The position numbers were made by a program, and so were the translations under genes. A stretch of 56,207 nt of DNA from positions 1 to 56,207 of the forward strand of contig WGER01000030.1 in assembly GCA_015492645.1 (NCBI GenBank), given 5' to 3'. Shown here piece by piece: positions 1,135-44,399 of this stretch (positions are counted from its first letter, which is position 1; each line of letters opens with the position of its first letter). Below the pieces are notes generated by a model. It was not told the origin of the DNA. It did no database searches and was given only the letters and a program-made list of their open reading frames with translations. The DNA comes from Nitrospirota bacterium. GTDB taxonomy: Bacteria > Nitrospirota > Thermodesulfovibrionia > Thermodesulfovibrionales > JdFR-85.

Positions 1135-1163
1135 ATTATATCATCAAAGGAGGGAAAAATCAA
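1135..1163 (-). promoter_or_regulatory. rRNA promoter P2
   Basis: Minus strand: TTGATT (1158-1163), 17-bp spacer, perfect TATAAT (1135-1140). Predicted start is near 1128, about 70 nt before the mature 16S end. Confidence 0.6.
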
Positions 1164-1360
1164 TACCCCGCGATACCTCCGGGTATGCGAGCATCTGAGG
1201 CTCTCAGACAAGTGGGTGCCTTGGTATATGCTTAGGCTTCCCCGCAGGCTTTTTAGGGCCTTTGGGGCGTGCACACCACATATACCGCTGGCTCCCTAAC
1301 TCTTCTTGTTCCCTCAGCTCTACACCCCTGATGAGGTATCGCGGAGAACTGTTGGCTTTG

Positions 1361-6372: not shown

Positions 6373-6549
6373 TAGTGCTGTCCAAAATAACCTGCGATAG
6401 TATACACAGGCGGTGTGCCGAACAGCAGAGGTCAGATATCAGAGGTCAGAAGTCGGATTTTTCACTTAGTCTTCTGACCTCTGACTTCAGACTTCTGACC
6501 TCTGTTTTTTTGGCACACCGCCTCTGCCTCAACCCTATTTTGGTGTAAT
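6373..6549 (+). mobile_element. Hybrid miniature inverted-repeat element (family 1 ends, foreign core)
   Basis: The left end (CTGTCCAAAATAACCTGCG...GGCGGTGTGCC, from 6378) is nearly identical to the left ends at 16140 and 47830. The right part (GGCACACCGCCTCTGCCTCA...CTATTTTGG, 6512-6542) matches their right ends, but the terminal GGACAGATGTG is lost. The usual ~110-bp core is replaced by an inverted repeat built of AGAGGTCAGA units (arms about 6426-6458 and 6470-6504). No clear target duplication remains. The 60-codon open frame across it is an artefact of the repeat. Confidence 0.65.
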
Positions 6550-9983: not shown

Positions 9984-11716
9984 AAAACAGAGAAATTGCA
10001 AAGGCCCTGAATACAATCGCCGATCTGCTCGAGATAAGGGGAGACAACCCCTTCAGGATAAGGGCCTACAGGAGGGCAGCACAGATCCTTGAGGACCTCC
10101 AGAGGTCTGTAGAGGAGATGTCTGACCAGGAATTGCTCTCACTGCCCGGAATCGGTAAGGACCTCCTTACCAAGATAAGGCAGTATCAGAGAGAGGGGAA
10201 GATGGAATTCTTAGAACAACTGAAGAGGGAGGTCCCTGAGGGGCTTACGGAACTGATGGCCGTGCCAGGGCTCGGGCCTGCAACCGCAAGGCTCATCTAT
10301 GAGCACCTTGGCATAAGGGATGTGGATGCCCTGGAGAGGGCAGCCATGGAGGGGGTACTCAGGGGTGTGCCAGGGATCAGGGAGAAGACAGAGAAGAACA
10401 TCCTGAAGGGTATCCAGATACTGAAGAGGACGAGAGTGAGAAGGCCCATAGGTATGGTGATGCCTCTGGCAGAAGAGATACTGGAGGCCCTGAGGGAGGT
10501 GAAGGGGGTGAAGAGATGTGCCATAGCCGGGAGCCTCCGGAGATGGAAGGAGACTATCAAGGATGTGGACATCCTCGCCTGTGCTGAAGATCCACAGAGA
10601 TTGATCAGGGCCTTTGTCAGTCTCCCATCAGTAGAGAGGGTCCTTGTTAGCGGCCCTGCCAAGACCTCGGTAATCCTGAGGGATGCCCTCCAGGTCGACC
10701 TGAGGATTGTTCAGGAAGACTCCTTCGGGTCAGCACTGCAGTACTTTACGGGATCCAAGGAGCATAATATCAGACTGAGGGAACTGGCACAGAGGAAGGG
10801 GCTGAAGGTGAATGAATACGGGGTCTACAGGTCAGACGGGACGAGGATAGGTGGTGAGACAGAGGAAGGGGTATACCAGGCCCTTGGCCTCCCCTTTATC
10901 CCTCCTGAATTGAGAGAGGACAGGGGCGAGATAGAGGCGGCCATGGATGGAAGACTCCCTGAACTGATCAGCATTGAGGATATCAGGGGTGACCTCCATA
11001 TACACTCAATATACAGTGATGGCAGAAACAGACTTGAAGAACTGGTGGAGGAGGCGATGAGGAGGGGGTATCAGTACATAGCCATAACAGACCACTCCAG
11101 GAGGCTTGCTATCGCTGGTGGACTTGATGAAGACAGAATCCTTGAACAGATCAGAGAGATTGATGCCCTGAACAAGAAACTGAACGGTTTCAGGGTCTTC
11201 TCTGGAGTGGAGGTGGATATAATGAACGATGGTAGACTCGACCTTCCTGAAGAGACCCTGAGCCGGCTTGACTTCGTGATAGCCTCCATCCACTCAGGCC
11301 TGAAGCAGTCATCAGAGATACTCACTATGAGGATACTGAAGGCGATTGGATCGTCCTATGTGCGGATGATAGGCCATCCTACAGGCAGACTGATGCCTGA
11401 CAGGGATGCCTGCGAGGTTGACCTTGAAACTGTATACAGGGAGGCATCAAGGACAGGCACGGCCCTGGAGATTAATGCCTTCCCGATGCGTCTTGACCTG
11501 AATGATACTGCTGCAAGGAGGGCGGCAGAGCATGGGGTGAAATTGATAATAAGCACAGATGCCCATCTGAAGGACCAGATGGGTTATATGAGATACGGAG
11601 TTGCCGTGGCAAGGAGGGCCTGGCTCAGAAAGGAGGATGTCCTTAACACCCTTACACTTCCGGAGTTTCAGAACTGGCTCAGAAACAGGAAGGCCCCGCA
11701 CTCTCTAATTTCCTAA
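9980..11716 (+). CDS. polX: DNA polymerase/3'-5' exonuclease PolX
   Basis: A 578-aa bacterial family X repair polymerase. Order: an N-terminal 8-kDa-type domain (residues 1-90) with helix-hairpin-helix segments (LLSLPGIGKDLLTKI; LMAVPGLGPATARLIYEHLGI), a palm domain with the nucleotidyltransferase motif GSLRRWKETIKDVDIL (catalytic DVD), then a C-terminal PHP domain from about residue 336 (GDLHIHSIYSDGRN, YIAITDHS, GVEVDIM, IGHPTGR, ISTDAH) that gives Mn-dependent exonuclease activity. The metal ligands of the PHP domain appear intact. It likely fills short gaps in base excision repair. Confidence 0.96.
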   Translation: MKNREIAKALNTIADLLEIRGDNPFRIRAYRRAAQILEDLQRSVEEMSDQELLSLPGIGKDLLTKIRQYQREGKMEFLEQLKREVPEGLTELMAVPGLGPATARLIYEHLGIRDVDALERAAMEGVLRGVPGIREKTEKNILKGIQILKRTRVRRPIGMVMPLAEEILEALREVKGVKRCAIAGSLRRWKETIKDVDILACAEDPQRLIRAFVSLPSVERVLVSGPAKTSVILRDALQVDLRIVQEDSFGSALQYFTGSKEHNIRLRELAQRKGLKVNEYGVYRSDGTRIGGETEEGVYQALGLPFIPPELREDRGEIEAAMDGRLPELISIEDIRGDLHIHSIYSDGRNRLEELVEEAMRRGYQYIAITDHSRRLAIAGGLDEDRILEQIREIDALNKKLNGFRVFSGVEVDIMNDGRLDLPEETLSRLDFVIASIHSGLKQSSEILTMRILKAIGSSYVRMIGHPTGRLMPDRDACEVDLETVYREASRTGTALEINAFPMRLDLNDTAARRAAEHGVKLIISTDAHLKDQMGYMRYGVAVARRAWLRKEDVLNTLTLPEFQNWLRNRKAPHSLIS

Positions 11717-11722
11717 ATTGCC

Positions 11723-11850
11723 AATAGGAATGGAGGGTTTTTACGGCAGGGACTCAGCCCTGAAAAATCTCTGATTTTTCAGGGGCCCCTGCCTCAAGAC
11801 AGGATTTATGCGACAGATTTGTTAGGCGGCAGTGCTGGTTCGGTTGGAGA
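11723..11850 (+). repeat. hairpin repeat family 2, copy 1
   Basis: It contains a perfect 12-bp stem, CCCTGAAAAATC (11758-11769) and GATTTTTCAGGG (11773-11784), with loop TCT. The stem is nested inside GGCAGGG/CCCTGCC. It is followed by the family tail CAAGACAGGATTTATGCGAC and GTTAGGCGGCAGTGCTGG. The polX-proximal hairpin could also serve as its terminator, but no T-tract follows. Confidence 0.65.
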
Positions 11851-18218: not shown

Positions 18219-18411
18219 GTTAGAAATGGCTGTTTTTGTCAGCAGGGTCTCCCAAAATCAGAGATTTTGGATGGCTGAGGGACTCAGGCCCTGAAAACTC
18301 TACGATTTTTCAGGGATCCCCGCCTCAAAACAGGATTTATGTGACAGATTTGTCAGGCGGGCAGTGCTGGCTCTGCCACAAATTAATGCAATGGATTTTA
18401 TTACATAAGGT
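18219..18411 (+). repeat. hairpin repeat family 2, copy 2 (with an extra hairpin)
   Basis: It starts GTTAGAAATGGCTGTTTTT. It carries an extra hairpin CCAAAATC-aga-GATTTTGG (18252-18270), then the family hairpin (CCCTGAAAA...TTTTTCAGGG), the tail CAAAACAGGATTTATG, the GGCGGGCAGTGCTGGCTCTG block and ACAAATTAATGCAATGG with TTTTATTACA. It fills most of the gap 18158-18525. No gene is seen there. Confidence 0.7.
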
Positions 18412-28001: not shown

Positions 28002-28152
28002 ATAGAAATAATTGTTTTTGCAGGATGAATTCAGCCCTGAAAAATCTTTGATCTTTCAGGGCATCCCTGCTTCAAAACAGAATTTAGGCAACAGTATTTA
28101 TTAGACGGTCAGTGCTGGCTCTGACACAAATTATGCGATGGATTTTATTACA
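28002..28152 (+). repeat. hairpin repeat family 2, copy 3
   Basis: It starts ATAGAAATAATTGTTTTTGC and carries the hairpin CCCTGAAAAATCtttGATCTTTCAGGG, CAAAACAGAATTTAGGC, GACGGTCAGTGCTGGCTCTG and ACAAATTATGCGATGG with TTTTATTACA. The rest of the 27926-28274 gap is A/T-rich spacer and a short GAGGCTACCGCCTC-type inverted repeat near 28186. No gene or strong terminator. Confidence 0.65.
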
Positions 28153-35249: not shown

Positions 35250-36470
35250 TTACTCTGTAAACACCCTTACGGTCTTCTCTGATATCCAGGCATTCTGATC
35301 GTCGAAGACCTCGACTCTGTACCACCTTATACCCTCATTGTCGGTTGCCACTGCTGTGGTCTTAAGTCTTGTCCCCCTTCTTACCGTACCAATCTTTTCT
35401 GAATCAATACCGGGTGCGACCCTGAGATTGGCCTCCCAGGCAGTCACAACCAGATACTCCGATGGTCCCTTAGGTGACTGTTCTTCCTCACCTGTGGCGA
35501 GATCCTGAGGTTGTGGTGACTCAACATTATTGGCTACTCCTTTATTAAGGGAATCCTCTATGGAGTTGAATAGACCTATCTCAGAGAGTCCGAATAACAG
35601 GAGGACCGCCAGCATAACAACCACAGAGACCACGATCGGGACCGGACTGATCTTCCTGTCCATCTCTTCTGGATTTAGTGTCTTCACCGCCTCCTTTATA
35701 TGGGCCTTCTGTACCACCTTGGCATCATCCATATAGGCACACATCAGGGCCCTGAGTCCGAGTATATTTATCAATCTTGGATTCCCCTCTGTATGTCTGT
35801 ATATCTCCCTTACAGCGGCATCAGAAAACCTGAGAAAGGTCTTACCTGCCTTAAGCAGCCTGAAGTTTATATACTCGCCGGTCTCCTGTCTGCTCAGGTG
35901 TTTTAGACGTACCTTGGTGGATATCCTCTGGTTCAGTTGTCTCAACAGCGGAGACCTCAACTTCTGTTCCAGTTCAGGCTGACCAACCAGGACAATCTGG
36001 AGGAGTTTTTCTTTATCGGTCTCGAGGTTGCTGAGGAGTCTCAGTTCTTCCAGTGTCTCGGTGGGAAGATTCTGGGCCTCATCCACCACGATAATCACCT
36101 TTCTGCCCTCCTGGACATTGCCTATCAGGACATCCCTGAATCCCCTCAAGAGTTCATTTTTATTGCCAGCAGCAATATCAAGCCCCAGTTCATCCAGCAC
36201 AGCAGACAGGAACTCCTCCGGTGACAGCCGAGGAGTCAGCACAAGCGCCACCTTTGCCTTTTCGGCCCATTCCCTTATAAAGACATTCAGCAGGGTGGTC
36301 TTACCCGTGCCCGGCTCACCCACTATCACACAGAAGCCTTCTGCCTGCTCCATGGAATACTCGAGTGCCTTCAGGGCGAGGTTATGTGACTCAGAGGGAA
36401 AGAAGTACTTTGGATCGGGTGTAAGCCTGAAGGGGTCTTCCTTGAGTCCATAGTAGTCAAGGAAGTTCAT
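35250..36470 (-). CDS. mshM: MshM/ExeA-like AAA ATPase with SH3 domain
   Basis: A 406-aa protein starting FLDYYGLKEDPFRLTPDPKYFFPSESH. Walker A is GEPGTGKTT (51-59), Walker B VIIVVDEAQNL, followed by HLSRQETGEYINFRL and IYRHTEGNPRLINILG. One transmembrane helix is near 275-297. A C-terminal bacterial SH3 domain (TAWEANLRVAPGIDSEKIGTVRRGTRL, WYRVEV) may bind peptidoglycan. ExeA/MshM proteins open the cell wall for secretin assembly. Shine-Dalgarno GGGAGGG. Last gene of the pilus operon. Confidence 0.9.
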   Translation of the reverse strand: MNFLDYYGLKEDPFRLTPDPKYFFPSESHNLALKALEYSMEQAEGFCVIVGEPGTGKTTLLNVFIREWAEKAKVALVLTPRLSPEEFLSAVLDELGLDIAAGNKNELLRGFRDVLIGNVQEGRKVIIVVDEAQNLPTETLEELRLLSNLETDKEKLLQIVLVGQPELEQKLRSPLLRQLNQRISTKVRLKHLSRQETGEYINFRLLKAGKTFLRFSDAAVREIYRHTEGNPRLINILGLRALMCAYMDDAKVVQKAHIKEAVKTLNPEEMDRKISPVPIVVSVVVMLAVLLLFGLSEIGLFNSIEDSLNKGVANNVESPQPQDLATGEEEQSPKGPSEYLVVTAWEANLRVAPGIDSEKIGTVRRGTRLKTTAVATDNEGIRWYRVEVFDDQNAWISEKTVRVFTE

Positions 36471-36471
36471 G

Positions 36472-37689
36472 TTACCCTCCCATCCCTATCTTTGAGACAA
36501 GGTCATAGACAGGTATAAGAAGACCGAGTATCACGAGTATAAAGAACAATCCCAATATAACTATCACAATCGGTTCAAGGAGTTTGCCGATCTTCTGACT
36601 GATATCCTCCAGTCTGTTAATGAAGTACTCTGAAAGAAAGGAAAACTGTTCATCAAGGGCCCCTGTCTGCTCACCCACATGGACCATCCTGACCAACATC
36701 AATGGAAAGACATCATGTCTCCGGAGGGCCTCTGAGATGGTATCACCTGCCATCACATCATCCCTTACTGCCAGTACCGCCTCCTTTGCATATTCATTCC
36801 CAAGCACCTCCGAGACTATCTCAAAGACCCTGTCTATACCTATACCTGCCACTAAGAGTATCCTCATCTGTTCAGAAAATATGGCAAGTATCTTATTATG
36901 TACTATCAGTTTAATCAGGGGCAGTTTCAGTTTTGCCCTGTCAAACCTGAGTCTCAACCTCCGGTTCCTCTTCAGGAGTTTGTACAGGACAAACAGACCC
37001 ACCGGCACAGAGAGGATCCACAACCAGTTGTTCTTCGTAAACTCGCTCACACCCATTATCACCCTTGTGAGAAGTGGCAGTGCAAGGTTCAACTCCCTGA
37101 AGAGGTTCGCAAGTTTGGGTAATACATACACGAGCCAGAATATCATTGCAGACAGGGTGGCCACGATGGTAAAGATTGGATATATGAGTGACCTCTTTAC
37201 TGCTGATGCAAGGGACTCAATCCTCTGTAGATGCTCAGAGATGTCCTTCAGACTCTGGTCAAGACGGCCCGTCTCCTCACCGACCCTAACAAGCCTGATA
37301 AAGATGTCAGGGAACACGTCTCGGTGGGCCTCTACCGCCTCTGACAGGGTTGCCCCCATCTGGACCATCTTGGAGATGGCAACTATCTTCTCCCTGAAGT
37401 ATTTATTCTCTGTGGTCGAGGCTATATCCTGAAGGGCAGTCAGAAGGGGAATGCCTGCCCTCAGCATCACCGATAGGTTATTGGAGAACTCAATGATATC
37501 CTTTCTCTTTACCCTGCCCCTCAGGAGGGCTTTCGTCCGGGCCATCCATGGACTGAGTCTCCTGATCTGAATCGGATAAAGACCAGCCCCCCTTATGGAC
37601 GACTCTATTGCCGAGACCTCCGTGCCTTCCACCACACCCTTCACCACCCTGCCCATCTCATCAACCGCCCTGTACCTGAAATAAGGCAT
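36472..37689 (-). CDS. mshG: MshG/GspF-type inner-membrane platform protein
   Basis: A 405-aa polytopic protein with two T2SSF repeats (FSNNLSVMLRAGIPLLTALQDIA; FSEQMRILLVAGIGIDRVFEIVSEVLGNE) and three transmembrane helices (about 170, 220, 375), including PIVIVILGLFFILVILGLLIPVYDLVSKIG. It couples the ATPase to pilin polymerisation. It begins 1 nt after the mshE stop codon. GspF, PilC and MshG are close relatives; operon content decides for MshG. Confidence 0.93.
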   Translation of the reverse strand: MPYFRYRAVDEMGRVVKGVVEGTEVSAIESSIRGAGLYPIQIRRLSPWMARTKALLRGRVKRKDIIEFSNNLSVMLRAGIPLLTALQDIASTTENKYFREKIVAISKMVQMGATLSEAVEAHRDVFPDIFIRLVRVGEETGRLDQSLKDISEHLQRIESLASAVKRSLIYPIFTIVATLSAMIFWLVYVLPKLANLFRELNLALPLLTRVIMGVSEFTKNNWLWILSVPVGLFVLYKLLKRNRRLRLRFDRAKLKLPLIKLIVHNKILAIFSEQMRILLVAGIGIDRVFEIVSEVLGNEYAKEAVLAVRDDVMAGDTISEALRRHDVFPLMLVRMVHVGEQTGALDEQFSFLSEYFINRLEDISQKIGKLLEPIVIVILGLFFILVILGLLIPVYDLVSKIGMGG

Positions 37690-37690
37690 A

Positions 37691-39340
37691 TCAGCCCACC
37701 ACCCTTATCACCTCTTCCACTGTGGTTATCCCCTTTTTCACCTTCTCCATCCCGTCCTCAATCAAGAGTCTCATACCTGACTGTACAGCCCTTGACTGTA
37801 TCTCTCCTGCGGGTGCCCTGCTGTAGATAAGGTCTTTGACCTCTCCATCTATCATAAGGAGTTCTCCAATGGCGGTCCTCCCCATGTACCCTGTAAGACC
37901 GCAGAATTCACACCCCTCTCCCCTGTAAACCCTTTCAGGGATCTCCTCCACCCCTGAGAATCTCAATCTACTCGCCTGCTCATCAGTTACAACCGTCTCG
38001 GTCTTGCAGTAGGGACATATCTTCCTCACAAGCCTCTGGGAGAGCACTGCAAGCAGAGACGAGGAAAGGAGTGTGCTGTCAACACCAAGGTCAAGAAGCC
38101 TGGGCACAGCAGTAACCGCATCATTTGTATGAAGGGTGCTCAGTACAAGGTGTCCTGTGATTGATGCCCTCACAGCAATGGTAGCCGTCTCCTGATCCCT
38201 TATCTCTCCTATCAACATCACATCAGGATCCTGTCGCATAAAGTTTCTGCCTGCTATCGCAAAGTCATATCCTGCCTTCAGGTTGACCTCCGTCTGCTTT
38301 ATCAAACTGATCCTGTATTCAACTGGGTCCTCCACTGTTATCACATTCTTCTCAAGGAGGTCGATCTCCCTCAATGCAGCATATAGGGTGGTTGTCTTTC
38401 CACTGCCGGTTGGTCCTGTTATGAGAATAATACCGTATGGCTTGGAGAAGAGGTATCTCAACTTCTTTGTCTCATCTGGTTCAAAACCCAGTCTCTCAAG
38501 TCTCAGAAGCGGGAGGGCACCCAGTAGTATCCTTATCACAACGTTCTCTCCATATATGGTAGGCACTGTAGAGACCCTCATGTCATAGTACCTGCCGAGA
38601 AAGGGGTACCTGAAAGAACCATCCTGTGGGAGTCTCTGTTCTGCAATATCCAGTTCAGACATCACCTTTATCTTTGATACCACACCAGAATGGGCCCTTC
38701 TTGGGAAACAGAAGGCGTGATGAAGCACACCGTCCACCCTGTAGAAGACATGGACACTCTCAGGTGATGGAGTTATATGTATATCTGTGGCGTTCTTTCT
38801 GATCCCATCCATAAGGATCAGTTCTGTGAGGGTTGATATATGAGTTGCCGTAACCTCATTCTTCAGTCTCTCAATCGTTTTGTCAAGGTTCTTCTGGATA
38901 GGATTTTCAAGAAAGAAGTATGCCTTCTCCTTTACGTCGTAAAAGGCCTCTGCATCAACCAGACATACCTTCACCGGAAGTCTCGTCAGCCTTGAAACAG
39001 TATCAATTGCCATTATATTGTTAGGGTCAATAACACCAATGTGGAACTGTCCATCCTTTATCTCGATCGGGATAAACTCTCCTCTGTCTGCCACATCTTT
39101 TGGTACCATCCTGAGTGCATCCTCTGAGACAGGGTGTTCCCTCAGGTCTATATAGGCAATACCGTACTGTTCGGCAAGCACCTCGCTTATCTCCTTGGAG
39201 GTAACAAAGCCCAGGCTGACAAGGGTCTCGCCAAGGAACTTTCCTGTAACCCTCTGCTGAGAGAGTGCAACCCTTACATGCTTCTCTGTAAGAAGCCCCT
39301 TCTCCCTCAGCAGTTCTCCTATCTTCTTTCTCTTAGACAC
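37691..39340 (-). CDS. mshE: MshE/GspE-type assembly ATPase
   Basis: A 549-aa hexameric ATPase: N1 domain (IGELLREKGLLTEKHVRVALSQQ), which in MshE binds cyclic di-GMP (the RLGE...-type motif is only loosely matched), Walker A GPTGSGKTT (309-317), Asp box TVEDPVEY, Walker B DVMLIGEIRDQETA, His box TGHLVLSTLHTNDA, and a four-Cys zinc site (CPYC...CEFC). GTG start 39340 overlaps the mshL stop. Confidence 0.93.
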   Translation of the reverse strand: MSKRKKIGELLREKGLLTEKHVRVALSQQRVTGKFLGETLVSLGFVTSKEISEVLAEQYGIAYIDLREHPVSEDALRMVPKDVADRGEFIPIEIKDGQFHIGVIDPNNIMAIDTVSRLTRLPVKVCLVDAEAFYDVKEKAYFFLENPIQKNLDKTIERLKNEVTATHISTLTELILMDGIRKNATDIHITPSPESVHVFYRVDGVLHHAFCFPRRAHSGVVSKIKVMSELDIAEQRLPQDGSFRYPFLGRYYDMRVSTVPTIYGENVVIRILLGALPLLRLERLGFEPDETKKLRYLFSKPYGIILITGPTGSGKTTTLYAALREIDLLEKNVITVEDPVEYRISLIKQTEVNLKAGYDFAIAGRNFMRQDPDVMLIGEIRDQETATIAVRASITGHLVLSTLHTNDAVTAVPRLLDLGVDSTLLSSSLLAVLSQRLVRKICPYCKTETVVTDEQASRLRFSGVEEIPERVYRGEGCEFCGLTGYMGRTAIGELLMIDGEVKDLIYSRAPAGEIQSRAVQSGMRLLIEDGMEKVKKGITTVEEVIRVVG

Positions 39341-40877
39341 CTTCCCTCAGGGTTAACACAGTGGGTTTCAACATTATCACCAGTTCTGTCCTCGCCTTCT
39401 GTTTGCTATGACTCTTGAAGATCGATCCTATCAGAGGGAGTCTGCCGAGGAAGGGGACCTGATTGTCTCTGGTCTCCTCTTTGGTGGAGATTAGTCCACC
39501 TATGACCACCATCTCTCCATCCCTCACCTTCACTGTGGTGCTCAGTTCTCTGAGGTCAACAGTCGGCAGGGTGAGTTCAATCCTGTTCTGTCCGACCTCT
39601 CCCAGTTGTCTCCTCTCAAGGCCCACCAGTTCGGATATAATCGGCGTGATTGTCATGGAGACAGTGCCATCCTGATGTATATAGGGTGCTATCCCGATAA
39701 TTATACCTGAAAGTATGCTCTCCGTCTCAGTGGAGAAGGTGACCTGGGTACCGGCAGCGGTCGCCGCAGTGGTGGTTGTGGTCTGTACCCTTGATATGAT
39801 GTCTGTACTCCTGCCGACTGTAAGGAGCGCTGTCTGGCCGTTCATGAGATTAACCCTTGGATTTGACAGGACCCTCACCTCTCCCATCTCTTCAAGTGCC
39901 CTCAGAAGGGCATTAAAGTTAAACTTTGTTATTGAGAGTTCGATATTCGGCTCCTCAGACTTTACTATCTCAGCAAAGTTGTTAAATTTTGCCCTGAACC
40001 CGTAGGTGAGATTACCGAGGCTGTCCCAGTTTATTCCGTATCTCAACCCCTCCTTCAGCCTCACCTCAACAATCCTCGCCTCTATCACCACCTGTCTGTT
40101 AAGAACCGCCTTCAGTTTTTCTATGTACTCCTGCACCCTCTTTAACTGGCCCTTTGTGCCAGTCACCACTATTGTGCCTGTCATCCTGTTGATGCTGAAG
40201 GACCCCTTTGGCGAGGCAGGGTCCTTGTCCTGAAGGATCTGCTCAAGGCCCTTCTCAATGGCCGTCCAGATATCCATCGTTCTTTCGGAAGAATTCCCGC
40301 TCAGAGAAACCTTCCCCTTTATCTGAGATGTCTCTGTGCCGGTTGTGCCGAGGATGTCACCTCCTACTTCTATACTGTATCTCTGTACCACAGGGGTATG
40401 GCCGAATTCAAAGACCCTGGTATCAGTGGCCTTTACATAGAGCACATTGCCCTTTATCTCGTAAAAATAATCTGTAGATGAGATAATGATCTCGATCGAT
40501 TCCCTGGCCGAAACGTTTCTGAGGGAGATGGTCACCTTCGTTTCAGGGTCAACCCCCCTCTGGAGGACAAGATTCAGGTCCACTGCATCAGCAATAGAAC
40601 GGAGGACGTCCCTCAGAGGGGCCCCGCTGACCGATATACTTACAGGCTCATTCAATGGCGAGAGACCCTCCTCTGCGGGGATAAACACGGGCTCTGAGAC
40701 AACCACCTTCTCACCAAAACCCTGTTCAGAGCCGGATGGAGGTAGGGCAGGGGCCGGTGGAGGAGCGGTCTCGACCTCCTCTCTCACAACCTCCCTCTCC
40801 TTTATACCCGCACAGGAGAGCAGTATAACTGCCATAATCAAGTAGAATCCAGAGTAAAGGGTTCTTTTGAGTTTCAT
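39333..40877 (-). CDS. mshL: MshL-type secretin lipoprotein
   Basis: A 514-aa outer-membrane secretin. A lipoprotein signal (MAVILLSCAG) precedes an N-domain (ISVSGAPLRDVLRSIADAVDLNLVLQRGVDPETKVTISLRNVSARESIEIII). The secretin domain follows (QVVIEARIVEVRL, RVLSNPRVNLMNGQTALLTVG, VRDGEMVVIGGLISTKEETRDNQVPFLGRLPLIGSIFKS). It forms the pilus exit pore. The length is short, like MshL rather than GspD. Shine-Dalgarno GGAGGTTA. Confidence 0.94.
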   Translation of the reverse strand: MKLKRTLYSGFYLIMAVILLSCAGIKEREVVREEVETAPPPAPALPPSGSEQGFGEKVVVSEPVFIPAEEGLSPLNEPVSISVSGAPLRDVLRSIADAVDLNLVLQRGVDPETKVTISLRNVSARESIEIIISSTDYFYEIKGNVLYVKATDTRVFEFGHTPVVQRYSIEVGGDILGTTGTETSQIKGKVSLSGNSSERTMDIWTAIEKGLEQILQDKDPASPKGSFSINRMTGTIVVTGTKGQLKRVQEYIEKLKAVLNRQVVIEARIVEVRLKEGLRYGINWDSLGNLTYGFRAKFNNFAEIVKSEEPNIELSITKFNFNALLRALEEMGEVRVLSNPRVNLMNGQTALLTVGRSTDIISRVQTTTTTAATAAGTQVTFSTETESILSGIIIGIAPYIHQDGTVSMTITPIISELVGLERRQLGEVGQNRIELTLPTVDLRELSTTVKVRDGEMVVIGGLISTKEETRDNQVPFLGRLPLIGSIFKSHSKQKARTELVIMLKPTVLTLREGV

Positions 40878-40878
40878 A

Positions 40879-41349
40879 TTAACCTCCAGTCTTTATAAAG
40901 ACCTTCCTTTTATCATCACCCTTCTGTAGTACCACATAGTTCTCCCCAATCTCTCTTACCAGGTACTCATCAATTGTATCCCCTTCCTTGACTGTGATAC
41001 CGTTTAACACAGCCAGTCTCTTTTTTCTACTCACCACAACCAGTTTGAGGTCCCATTCAGGAGGTCTCTTTTCTATTACTGTCTTCCCTTCCTTTCTCTC
41101 CTTTACCACTGCCATAACCCTCTTTACAATAGCAAAGGGGTCTTTAACAAAGGAAGGCACTTCAAGGGTGGGTGGTTCTGGTATCTCAGGAACCTCTCTC
41201 ACCTCTGAGATGTATTTATAGAGTCTCCTCTCTTCCTCCGAGACCATCCTCTCCTTCACAATACTCCGGCTGAGGAGAAATGAGAGGACCATCAATAAAG
41301 GGGGCAGAAGAAGCAGAACTGTGGTCTTAAGTAACTCCAGACCTCTCAT
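40879..41349 (-). CDS. MshK/PilP-like pilus assembly protein
   Basis: A 156-aa protein: one transmembrane helix (LLKTTVLLLLPPLLMVLSFLL), a Pro/Glu linker (EVREVPEIPEPPTLEVPSF) and a small C-terminal beta domain (WDLKLVVVSRKKRLAVLNGITVKEGDTIDEYLVREIGENYVVLQKGDDKRKVFI) of the PilP/GspC/MshK type that links the inner-membrane complex to the secretin. The ATG at 41349 with GGAGGAT is preferred to a start 24 nt upstream. Confidence 0.8.
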   Translation of the reverse strand: MRGLELLKTTVLLLLPPLLMVLSFLLSRSIVKERMVSEEERRLYKYISEVREVPEIPEPPTLEVPSFVKDPFAIVKRVMAVVKERKEGKTVIEKRPPEWDLKLVVVSRKKRLAVLNGITVKEGDTIDEYLVREIGENYVVLQKGDDKRKVFIKTGG

Positions 41350-41350
41350 A

Positions 41351-41884
41351 TCATCCTCCACTGCTGAGACCACCCTGCAATAGGGGCGTCAGGAGATATC
41401 CCTTTATAGTACACTGCAGTGAGTCCCTGGATGGCGAGGCCTCCACTATTATACTTTCATAGTAAAAAAGGGGGTAGGAGTTGAACCTGAGCCTCTGTAG
41501 CACCTTTAGTAGATTGAGAAACTCCTCAGTACGATAGGTTATTGTAACCGGCATCTTTACTGTATCGTCTTCCCTTACAAAACCATGTAGCCCCATTGAC
41601 AGTCCAGGCATGAGCCTGATCTGATCGACTCTCTGCAGAATCGCCTCCTCTGCTGATGTATTCACCGGAACCATCACAGATGCCTTCTGTATATTCCCTC
41701 TTATCCTCTCTATCTCCTTTAACATATACTCCCTCTTGCCGGCAATCACCTGGAGCATGGTCCTGTACTCACTCAGCAACTCTGTCTCATATATCACAAT
41801 TGTGGTGAGCCCTATCAGCGCAGAGACAATTACCCCAATTAACAGATAAAGGATGAGTTTCTTCTTGATTATATAGAAATACAT
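41351..41884 (-). CDS. mshJ: MshJ/PilO-like protein
   Basis: A 177-aa protein: N-terminal transmembrane helix (IIKKKLILYLLIGVIVSALIGLTTIVIY), a coiled-coil (YRTMLQVIAGKREYMLKEIERIRGNIQKA) and a PilO-like ferredoxin fold (MPGLSMGLHGFVREDDTVKMPVTITYRTEEFLNLLKVLQRL). The ATG at 41884 is 1 nt after the stop of the PilM-PilN fusion. It partners PilN in the alignment complex. Confidence 0.85.
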   Translation of the reverse strand: MYFYIIKKKLILYLLIGVIVSALIGLTTIVIYETELLSEYRTMLQVIAGKREYMLKEIERIRGNIQKASVMVPVNTSAEEAILQRVDQIRLMPGLSMGLHGFVREDDTVKMPVTITYRTEEFLNLLKVLQRLRFNSYPLFYYESIIVEASPSRDSLQCTIKGYLLTPLLQGGLSSGG

Positions 41885-41885
41885 C

Positions 41886-43274
41886 CTATCGCATCTCCTC
41901 AAGTGTCCCTGCAATGATAAAAGTCCCCTCATCCAGCCTGAAGGTCTCACCACTTATCTTTATGCCTGTGCTGCTGAGAGACTCCATGAAGGCCCTTAAG
42001 GTCCTCTGCCTTTGCAGGAGACCCTCTCCGTCTACCCTTCCCTTTATAGTAAATGAGAGGCTGTTCATCTGACGTTCAACCTTTACCTGGTCAATTGTGA
42101 TGCCAGATGCTGTCTCCGAGACCTTTATAAAGAACTCTGCCGGAGAGGTCTCTCTCATCAACGACTGAAGGGTCTGGATCTTCTCCTCATAACCCTTCCA
42201 CTTCTGAAACTCTCTCTGATATACGGCATTTATCTGCCGTATATCAGACACCTCCCCCCTCAACATATTGATGGAGTCTCTTACAGTCTTCAACTCATTC
42301 AGTTTCACAGGCAAAACAGCCACAAGAAATGCTGAAAGGACCGCCATGAGCAGGCTGGATACAGTGAGATACCGGTTGACATTTCTGTAGAATCGGTAAT
42401 CCCCTGGCAGGAACATCTTCTCCTGTGGGACCCCCCTCCTGAGGAGAGGGCTCAGAAGGGATGCCCTCCTTTTCAGTGTTGTCGCAATGGGGAGGATATA
42501 CTCTACCATGTCGGTAGCCTTAAGGGACTGTGAAAACTCAACAGAGGGAGTTACAAGACTGCTGAGGGGTATAACTGGTAATGTTGAAAGGTCCTCTGAG
42601 ACCTCCTGCTGTCCCACGAGATATACCACCTCAGGCACAAGACCAAGCCTCTGCCTGGAGTAGTTGACTGTCATATTTATGCTCTGTATGTCCGAGTCGT
42701 CCAACCAGAGAGGAGAACCACGGAGTCTCCTTAAAAGATAGAGAACACCTCTGTAACAGAGGAGCACAGCCCTGTCTTCCGCCCTCCGGAAAACAAACAG
42801 GGAAGGGGTGTCAACCTCTGGAATGAGGTTGAGAAGGGGCAGGTAATTTGGGATCAGGGCCTCCACCTTTTTGCCGAATCCCAGAAAGATGTGTAGATAT
42901 CTGTCCACAGAGGCCCTCGGTATCGCAAAGACCAGGACCTCTGTCTGGGGCTGCGCCTCTGTGAGTTTCTGACCGGTGATGAAATATGAGTAAAGCCATT
43001 CTGATACATCAGGATTCTGGGCGTGGAGTTCCCTTTCTATCAGCAGTTGTAGTGCCTTACCCCTTGCCGGTGGCAGTACAAAGGTGTCCTGGAACAGGTC
43101 TGGAAAGTGTATGTTCAGGTAAAATTCCCTGTTTTTTTCTGATCTCAGGTAGTCTTCAACCCCCTGCTCCTGTATATTGAACACCTCTTCCACAATGGTC
43201 TTTCCACCCCTCTGCTTGGTGTACACGACCTTGAGGGAACCATTTTCAATACTTATACCCACCCTATGGCCCAT
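41886..43274 (-). CDS. mshI: MshI-type PilM-PilN fusion
   Basis: A 462-aa fusion. Residues 1-290 resemble the cytoplasmic actin-like PilM/GspL-N fold (HRVGISIENGSLKVVYT, ERELHAQNPDVSEWLYSYFI, LIPNYLPLLNLIPEVDTPSLFVFRRAEDRAVLLCYRG). A transmembrane helix at about 302-322 and a PilN periplasmic part follow (LNELKTVRDSINMLRGEVSDIRQINAVYQREFQKW, ITIDQVKVERQMNSLSFTIKG). In canonical type IV pili these are separate proteins. It overlaps the transposase-like gene upstream by 11 nt. Confidence 0.88.
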   Translation of the reverse strand: MGHRVGISIENGSLKVVYTKQRGGKTIVEEVFNIQEQGVEDYLRSEKNREFYLNIHFPDLFQDTFVLPPARGKALQLLIERELHAQNPDVSEWLYSYFITGQKLTEAQPQTEVLVFAIPRASVDRYLHIFLGFGKKVEALIPNYLPLLNLIPEVDTPSLFVFRRAEDRAVLLCYRGVLYLLRRLRGSPLWLDDSDIQSINMTVNYSRQRLGLVPEVVYLVGQQEVSEDLSTLPVIPLSSLVTPSVEFSQSLKATDMVEYILPIATTLKRRASLLSPLLRRGVPQEKMFLPGDYRFYRNVNRYLTVSSLLMAVLSAFLVAVLPVKLNELKTVRDSINMLRGEVSDIRQINAVYQREFQKWKGYEEKIQTLQSLMRETSPAEFFIKVSETASGITIDQVKVERQMNSLSFTIKGRVDGEGLLQRQRTLRAFMESLSSTGIKISGETFRLDEGTFIIAGTLEEMR

Positions 43275-44211
43275 ACCTCTGCCTCAATCTCTCAAGAAGC
43301 CTCCTGTAGGTCTCTGAGAGGTCACTGTCAGATGCCATACGTAATTCAAATCTCCTGCATGCCTGAGCCACTGCTGCATAGTCCATTCCATACAGCCTGC
43401 CTATCTCTTTGAGTGTAAGAGGTGTAAGGCTCTTAAGCATATAAAGGCTCAACTGCCTCAGTCCATTACCCCTCTTTCTGAGAAAGATCTCCTCCCTGCT
43501 GATTGAAAATTCTGAAATAATTACATTGTATATCTCTTCTGGTGTATACCTTATTAAATCTCTGTAACGGTCCTCAGGTAGAATATTATCTGAGATGAGT
43601 CTGTTAATAAACCCCCTGTCTCCGAGAATAACCCCCCTGTGGGCAGCCCTGAAGGGTTCAAATCCGGAGACCTCGCCCAGCAACCTCTTATATCTGCTTC
43701 TGGCCCTCTTGAGGCTTCTGTCAAGTCTATGAAGGACTTCTCTGTATCTGAGCCCCTCTATTGTTTTCTCACACCCCATGTAGTCACCATAACTGCTCCA
43801 GGGGTAGGCATCAATATCTACCACAAGTTTCTCCTTCAGGGGCACCAGATGTATGTATGCGGTAAGCAGAAGGAGATATCTTTCAGGCTCTATCACCAGA
43901 GACCTGTATCTGCCCTGAAATATACTCCCCTTTATCCTGTATTTATTCCTGAACCAGTTTGCGTAGGCTGAATTGAGATAATGCATCCCCTCCGAGATAT
44001 TTGGCAGAGGCGTCCTTACAAGCAGGTGATACCCCTTCGGTGTCAGACAGTAGGCATAACAGAGGAATGAGTACTTCTGGAGTGTCTCTTTCAGTTTCTT
44101 CATAAAGACCATTCTGTCTTTATCCTCTTTGAATATCTCCTCCTCTCTATGCCCCCTTACAAGGAGATAGTAAAAGGCGTCACTGCAGACTACTCTTAAG
44201 GGCCTTGCCAT
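43264..44211 (-). CDS. REP-associated tyrosine transposase-like protein with eroded HUH motif
   Basis: A 315-aa RAYT-type protein: MARPLRVVCSDAFYYLLVRGHREEEIFKEDKDR, YCLTPKGYHLLVRTPLPNISEGMHYLNSAYANWF, KGSIFQGRYRSLVIEPERYLLLLTAYIHLVPLKEKLV. The usual PNHYHLLV becomes PKGYHLLV, so the first His of the HUH metal site is Gly60. The Tyr of YIHL (119) is kept. The C-terminal part (about 250-300) ends in a DnaA-C/HTH-like segment (LTLKEIGRLYGMDYAAVAQACRRFE). It is the first gene of the pilus operon, with its own leaderless-type promoter. Probably not an active transposase; perhaps a co-opted DNA-binding regulator. Confidence 0.85.
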   Translation of the reverse strand: MARPLRVVCSDAFYYLLVRGHREEEIFKEDKDRMVFMKKLKETLQKYSFLCYAYCLTPKGYHLLVRTPLPNISEGMHYLNSAYANWFRNKYRIKGSIFQGRYRSLVIEPERYLLLLTAYIHLVPLKEKLVVDIDAYPWSSYGDYMGCEKTIEGLRYREVLHRLDRSLKRARSRYKRLLGEVSGFEPFRAAHRGVILGDRGFINRLISDNILPEDRYRDLIRYTPEEIYNVIISEFSISREEIFLRKRGNGLRQLSLYMLKSLTPLTLKEIGRLYGMDYAAVAQACRRFELRMASDSDLSETYRRLLERLRQRYGP

Positions 44212-44217
44212 GCCAAA

Positions 44218-44226
44218 ATTTTAACA
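44218..44226 (-). promoter_or_regulatory. extended -10 promoter of the transposase-like gene and pilus operon
   Basis: The minus strand reads TGT-TAAAAT, 6 nt, then the ATG at 44211, the same arrangement as before mlaE. No Shine-Dalgarno site. Confidence 0.55.
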
Positions 44227-44399
44227 TATTTTTCATTAAATGTCAAATGTTTAGACCAGACCCCACGATAAAAAACCTTTTAATTCAAATCAATTATTAA
44301 TCTAAAAGAAATTTTTGATTAAGAAATATAAATTATCGCTTTAGAAAATCAGAGATTTTTATAAAGACTCACGGAGACTCCCACCTGTTCTCCATGAAC

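Follow-up and report, generated by a model that had tools for sequence, protein, structure and literature searches.

An eroded TIRYT-type transposase gene at the head of a putative MSHA-like pilus operon: a probable immobilized relic and possible autoregulator

Organization of the locus

We analyzed a 56,207-nucleotide stretch of a Nitrospirota genome (here called the window), in which an uninterrupted open reading frame (ORF) of 315 codons precedes a gene cluster that, judged by its sequence, encodes a putative type IV, MSHA-like pilus. The names of the operon genes follow the preliminary description of this DNA and are backed by the presence of a secretin and an MshEN-type ATPase and by the gene order, the G and M genes having been named from sequence and order only. 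The features considered below are the following, in window coordinates.

35250..41953, minus strand: other operon genes, namely, J, K, L (secretin), E (ATPase with MshEN domain), a G-like gene, and an M-like ATPase gene (Pfam, gene order)
41886..43274, minus strand: mshI-like gene, the first of the operon's pilus genes (synteny with operons in genomes G001, G002, G004, and G006)
43264..43274, minus strand: 11-nt overlap between the 3' end of the transposase gene and the start of mshI, with no right TIR nearby
43264..44211, minus strand: ORF of a TIRYT/RAYT-type Y1 transposase, catalytically eroded, 315 amino acids (Pfam, AlphaFold2 model)
43351..43542, minus strand: codons 224 to 287, DnaA-domain-IV-like helix-turn-helix (HTH) (Pfam, structure; identity typical of the family)
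43843..43845, minus strand: codon 123, Val replacing the metal-ligand Asn of the Y---NP motif (Asn in 48/49 and 33/33 homologues)
43855..43857, minus strand: codon 119, Tyr kept at the nucleophile position (homologue alignment)
44026..44034, minus strand: codons 60 to 62, GYH replacing HUH (His at codon 60 in 49/49 and 33/33 homologues)
44218..44223, minus strand: predicted -10 box, TAAAAT, with TG upstream, ending 6 nt before the ATG
44241..44246, minus strand: predicted -35 box, TTGACA, coinciding with the inner TIR end (consensus match)
44241..44264, minus strand: left TIR, GGGGTCTGGTCTAAACATTTGACA, matching the TIR of relatives at 22/24 positions and present as a single genome copy at up to 3 mismatches

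The ORF scored above the Pfam cutoffs for both Y1_Tnp (29.1 bits, cutoff of 23) and Bac_DnaA_C (36.8 bits, cutoff of 31.5), and the 2.43-Mb genome has no other Y1_Tnp match; with the NCBIfam model REP_Tyr_transpos, it reached 46.5 bits, under the cutoff of 80. An AlphaFold2 model built from an alignment of 34 sequences (mean pLDDT, 90.7) had the Escherichia coli RAYT/TnpAREP protein (4er8) as its top PDB match, and its C terminus was matched by structures of DnaA domain IV. By domain and fold, the protein belongs to the Y1 (HUH) superfamily, RAYT/TnpAREP class 2, and the Bac_DnaA_C-type HTH at its C terminus is the one found in TnpAREP subclass 2.1.2, that is, the TIRYTs. The RAYT framework, the HTH-like C terminus, the intact 315-codon frame, and the 11-nt overlap with mshI, all claimed in the preliminary description, were thus recovered. 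The gene has a GC3 of 0.53, and its base composition resembles that of its neighbors.

Erosion of the catalytic site

Residue conservation was judged from two sets of homologues, 49 of the same phylum and 33 obtained in a wider search. In these enzymes, the metal is held by the two His residues of HUH and by the Asn located four residues past the catalytic Tyr (PMC6006769). Both motifs, HUH and Y---NP, are broken in the window protein, so that two of its three predicted metal ligands are missing (H60G and N123V), the change at H60 being found in no other homologue of either set. The eroded HUH had been noticed before, and the damage proved to be wider: H15Y and N59K alter residues that are His and Asn, respectively, in 49/49 phylum homologues, N21H replaces an Asn present in 48/49, and M57T is a further change at a nearly invariant position, with at least 10 near-invariant positions altered relative to the phylum set. 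Tyr119, His62, Trp138, Ser140, and the fold glycines have been retained. Because two of the three metal ligands are lost, we strongly infer that cleavage has been lost too, as the preliminary description had predicted.

Terminal inverted repeats and origin of the element

In 11 of the 12 close relatives inspected, the homologous ORF lies between inverted copies of GGGGTCAGGTCTCAACATTTGACA, the start of which (GGGGTCAG) fits the motif GGGGWSAS published for the TIRs of TIRYTs (PMC3733652). In the window, the motif reads GGGGTCTG, one base off. The left TIR is as near to the consensus as those of presumably active elements, and 200 shuffles of the window gave no chance match better than 18/24. 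Near the 3' end of the transposase gene and the start of mshI, no right TIR was found, the best candidate (15/24) being at chance level, and a search of the source genome at up to 3 mismatches yielded no second copy. Genomes G005, G007, G014, G015, and G016 had from 7 to 22 TIR matches each, mostly as inverted pairs.

The flanking TIRs, the fit to GGGGWSAS, and the combination of a Y1 core with Bac_DnaA_C, which is the architecture of subclass 2.1.2 in the 2018 survey of Y1 proteins (PMC6006769), indicate a TIRYT origin and not that of a classical REP-bound RAYT. The transposase is therefore better called a TIRYT (RAYT subclass 2.1.2). It shares with TIRYTs/TIRtrons (PMC3733652) and with subclass 2.1.2 (PMC6006769) the domain architecture, a left TIR, and a low copy number, but it differs from them in lacking the right TIR, in its broken HUH and Y---NP motifs, and in being fused to a pilus operon. 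Since only the left TIR is present, the gene is a derivative of a TIRYT element and not a complete one. Classical RAYTs have no HTH and are active on REPs, whereas the window protein has one; compared with the E. coli RAYT, it has this extra domain, has lost metal ligands, and is not accompanied by REP-type repeats, no hairpin having been found near the gene.

The closest homologues are 42 to 48% identical; they come from three genomes belonging to the same family as the source genome and from metagenome-assembled genomes labeled Scalindua, Omnitrophica, Cloacimonadota, Atribacteria, Desulfobacterota or Deltaproteobacteria, and Aminicenantes. This patchy spread suggests mobility. The window element itself looks immobilized, with its right TIR missing and its catalytic residues gone. 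An alternative active site that keeps the transposase working could draw on the retained Tyr119 and His62 and on the predicted intact fold, but the loss of two of three metal ligands, together with the lack of a right TIR and of further TIR copies in the genome, makes this very improbable in our view.

In G005, G014, G015, and G016 (e.g., L161, L162, L163, and L164), the TIR of the TIRYT also recurs in many short inverted pairs, the two copies being separated by a few tens to about 150 bases. These pairs are MITE-like derivatives of the element; in neither G014 nor G016 was a close TIRYT homologue detected.

A promoter built on the TIR

Upstream of the transposase gene, we found the site TTGACA-17-TAAAAT, which agrees with the consensus at 11/12 positions (a match to the consensus rather than a mapped start) and is the only strong promoter-like site of the window just ahead of the operon. 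The earlier claim that transposase and mshI share a promoter is thereby supported as a prediction. Since the -10 box ends 6 nt before the ATG, a leaderless transcript is implied, and since the -35 box lies inside the TIR, it would be covered by any protein that binds there.

In relatives, the layout consists of TTGAC(A/G) at the end of the TIR and a TAnnnT hexamer ending 6 to 9 nt before the ATG; a script ranked it as the best site for 9 of 14 relatives, and inspection by eye added L055 and L090. Given that relatives have this layout in common, the promoter is an ancestral feature of the element, and this inherited promoter probably now serves the mshIJKLEGM operon. The conserved position of the -35 box within the TIR also suggests a built-in autoregulation of TIRYT elements: in such a model of the family, the TIR overlaps the promoter, so that binding to the TIR should repress the transposase. 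This layout, in which the left TIR ends inward with the -35 box and the mRNA should be leaderless, is conserved in the relatives L084 to L095.

Insertion elements can supply promoters to adjacent genes from their ends. The window differs from such cases in that the promoter belongs to the transposase itself, whose gene, dead yet intact, is read through.

Genomic context in relatives

In the genome of the same genus (G001), mshI-J-K-L-E is conserved (51 to 83% identity), and upstream of mshI are prepilin-like genes and no transposase. The preliminary description proposed to look for orthologues in front of mshI in related genomes; they were absent from this genome and from the other seven relatives examined (0/8), among which the genes upstream of mshI vary. 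Conversely, mshI was not detected in G005, G007, and G015, the holders of the closest homologues, where the neighbors are a murJ-like gene or a helicase-like gene and others unrelated to pili. Close homologues with an intact HUH thus sit at loci unrelated to mshI, and both observations that the preliminary description had named as counterevidence were made. The transposase-mshI arrangement was found in one species only, without the conservation in place across species that marks domesticated transposases.

That the gene is an old regulator of this type of pilus, part of the mshI operon across the group, is compatible with its operon position and its overlap with mshI, but such a long-standing partnership is extremely improbable, and can be set aside, given that the mshI operons of the eight relatives examined (the same genus included) do without the gene and that intact-HUH homologues lie at unrelated loci in genomes with no detectable mshI. 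As none of these relatives has the transposase at mshI, the insertion is specific to the lineage as far as sampled, and a co-option confined to the source lineage is compatible with its absence from the mshI operons of relatives.

Divergence of the domains and selection

We expressed the identity of each domain relative to the mean identity within the clade, with bootstrap intervals. The catalytic domain of the window protein retained 0.745 of the family identity (0.66 to 0.83) and the linker 0.54 (0.40 to 0.69), while the HTH retained 0.958 (0.84 to 1.07). The difference between HTH and catalytic domain had a bootstrap P of 0.003, the fast evolution of the HTH in the family limiting the power of this comparison. 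On a fixed tree, the window branch was 0.93 for the catalytic domain versus 0.14 to 0.33 for most relatives, and 0.70 for the HTH, an ordinary value.

A simulation of drift matching the catalytic loss gave an expectation of ca. 4.7 nonsense hits, with none in only 1 of 200 runs; the ORF has no stops, in agreement with the earlier statement that selection has kept the frame. Omega was 0.065 on the window branch versus 0.076 elsewhere, with a neutral branch length of ca. 15 to 18 substitutions per codon, which means saturation. Codon models rejected neutrality for the whole window branch, which includes time as an active element. Some of the purifying selection along the branch predates the loss, and with synonymous sites saturated and active time included, codon models cannot date the loss of catalysis. 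The uneven retention of the domains and the open frame would favor purifying selection after mobility was lost. We read these data as a relaxation of catalysis in a protein whose frame and HTH were kept, and the retention of the HTH fits a DNA-binding role. Of the role proposed at the outset, DNA binding is partly supported, the erosion being confined to catalytic domain and linker; the hairpins proposed as targets (see below) are not supported.

Two other histories would leave an open frame. In one, the element was recently inactivated and is a future pseudogene, open for want of time. Its occurrence in a single species and a left TIR still at 22/24 would agree with this, but the many altered near-invariant positions, the long terminal branch of the catalytic domain, and the ca. 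4.7 stops that drift of that size should have produced make it improbable. In the other, the protein is idle, and translational coupling holds the frame open: ribosomes finishing the transposase would start mshI, whose ribosome-binding site lies inside the gene, so that stops are disfavored. The 11-nt overlap, an AGG-rich stretch before the mshI ATG, the one strong promoter-like site upstream, and the heavy erosion of catalytic domain and linker are all in keeping with an idle protein. Coupling could keep the frame, but it would not explain the retention of the HTH, since a passive relic should erode equally across its domains (0.958 versus 0.745 here, with the limit on power given above). We consider such an idle protein rather unlikely.

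Proposed explanation

We propose that a TIRYT element, a single Y1 transposase gene between TIRs, landed just upstream of mshI in the source lineage. Loss of the right TIR would then have brought the transposase gene and mshI together, and transposition would no longer be possible. The element's own promoter, its -35 box lying at the inner edge of the left TIR, would now transcribe the transposase together with mshIJKLEGM. We hold this part, an immobilized relic with a captured promoter, to be very probable. The dead protein would still fold and bind DNA through its HTH, probably at the retained TIR, from where it would repress or tune the promoter of itself and of the pilus genes. A role of the dead transposase as autoregulator of its promoter and of the pilus operon is put forward tentatively. 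Relic, captured promoter, and autoregulator combined make up the most likely explanation, with about an even chance of being right.

A more specific version is somewhat doubtful, namely, that the dead TIRYT and the remaining TIR form a repressor-operator pair autoregulating the type IV (MSHA-like) pilus operon; we would be equally hesitant to say that this pair was built on the ancestral layout, with the -35 box in the TIR, through which elements of the family already control their own transposase. Autoregulation via the retained TIR is perhaps the most economical function for a dead transposase, and the left TIR could have been retained simply for the -35 box that it holds. The roles of the TIRs and of the DnaA-like domain in TIRYT proteins have been left open in the literature consulted (PMC6006769). 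The family is ordinary, and its window member is an unusual relic, specific to its lineage and possibly co-opted.

If true, this would be an HUH transposase turned transcription regulator, with the presumed binding site of its ancestor still in place. The outcome is analogous to that of the TldR proteins, dead regulators of flagellin genes derived from TnpB (PMC13418256), where a transposon protein has likewise become the regulator of a surface-appendage gene. TldRs belong to another protein family and are RNA guided; the likeness drawn here is one of outcome.

Hairpin repeat and other features of the window

As candidate targets, DnaA boxes were rejected, the window having 48 matches at one mismatch versus 41 expected, which is the chance level; the published TIR consensus is unlike a DnaA box (PMC6006769). 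The hairpin repeats, suggested previously as possible binding sites, were rejected as well, being unlinked to the gene or to its homologues across genomes. Hairpins occur in the window at 11758, 18289, and 28035, the nearest being 15 kb from the transposase. The repeat, with 46 matches in the source genome, is absent from the three genomes holding the closest transposase homologues, no hairpin palindromes were found in the regions examined around Y1 transposase genes, and the repeat and the TIR have no sequence in common. Its palindromes number 19 in the source genome and 0 in G001; three genomes of another genus, all without a close transposase homologue, have 9 to 18. It is thus an unrelated repeat.

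This dispersed intergenic repeat, of ca. 75 to 115 nt, lies at 11715 to 11830, 18278 to 18360, and 28014 to 28108 and forms a near-perfect hairpin with a GAAAAATCnnnGATTTTTC core and a conserved box, CTCAARACAGGATTTATG. No Rfam family matched it at the gathering threshold. Its outer arms covary in pairs (CCCTG/CAGGG, CCATG/CATGG, and CCCCG/CGGGG). At 6426 to 6497, there is a further inverted repeat, imperfect and with arms of 27 nt (CAGAGGTCAGATATCAGAGGTCAGAAG), which is separate from this family. Toward the contig end, a 6S RNA gene (1161 to 1350, minus strand; Rfam gathering threshold) lies ca. 100 nt from a 16S rRNA gene on the same strand (1 to 1060).
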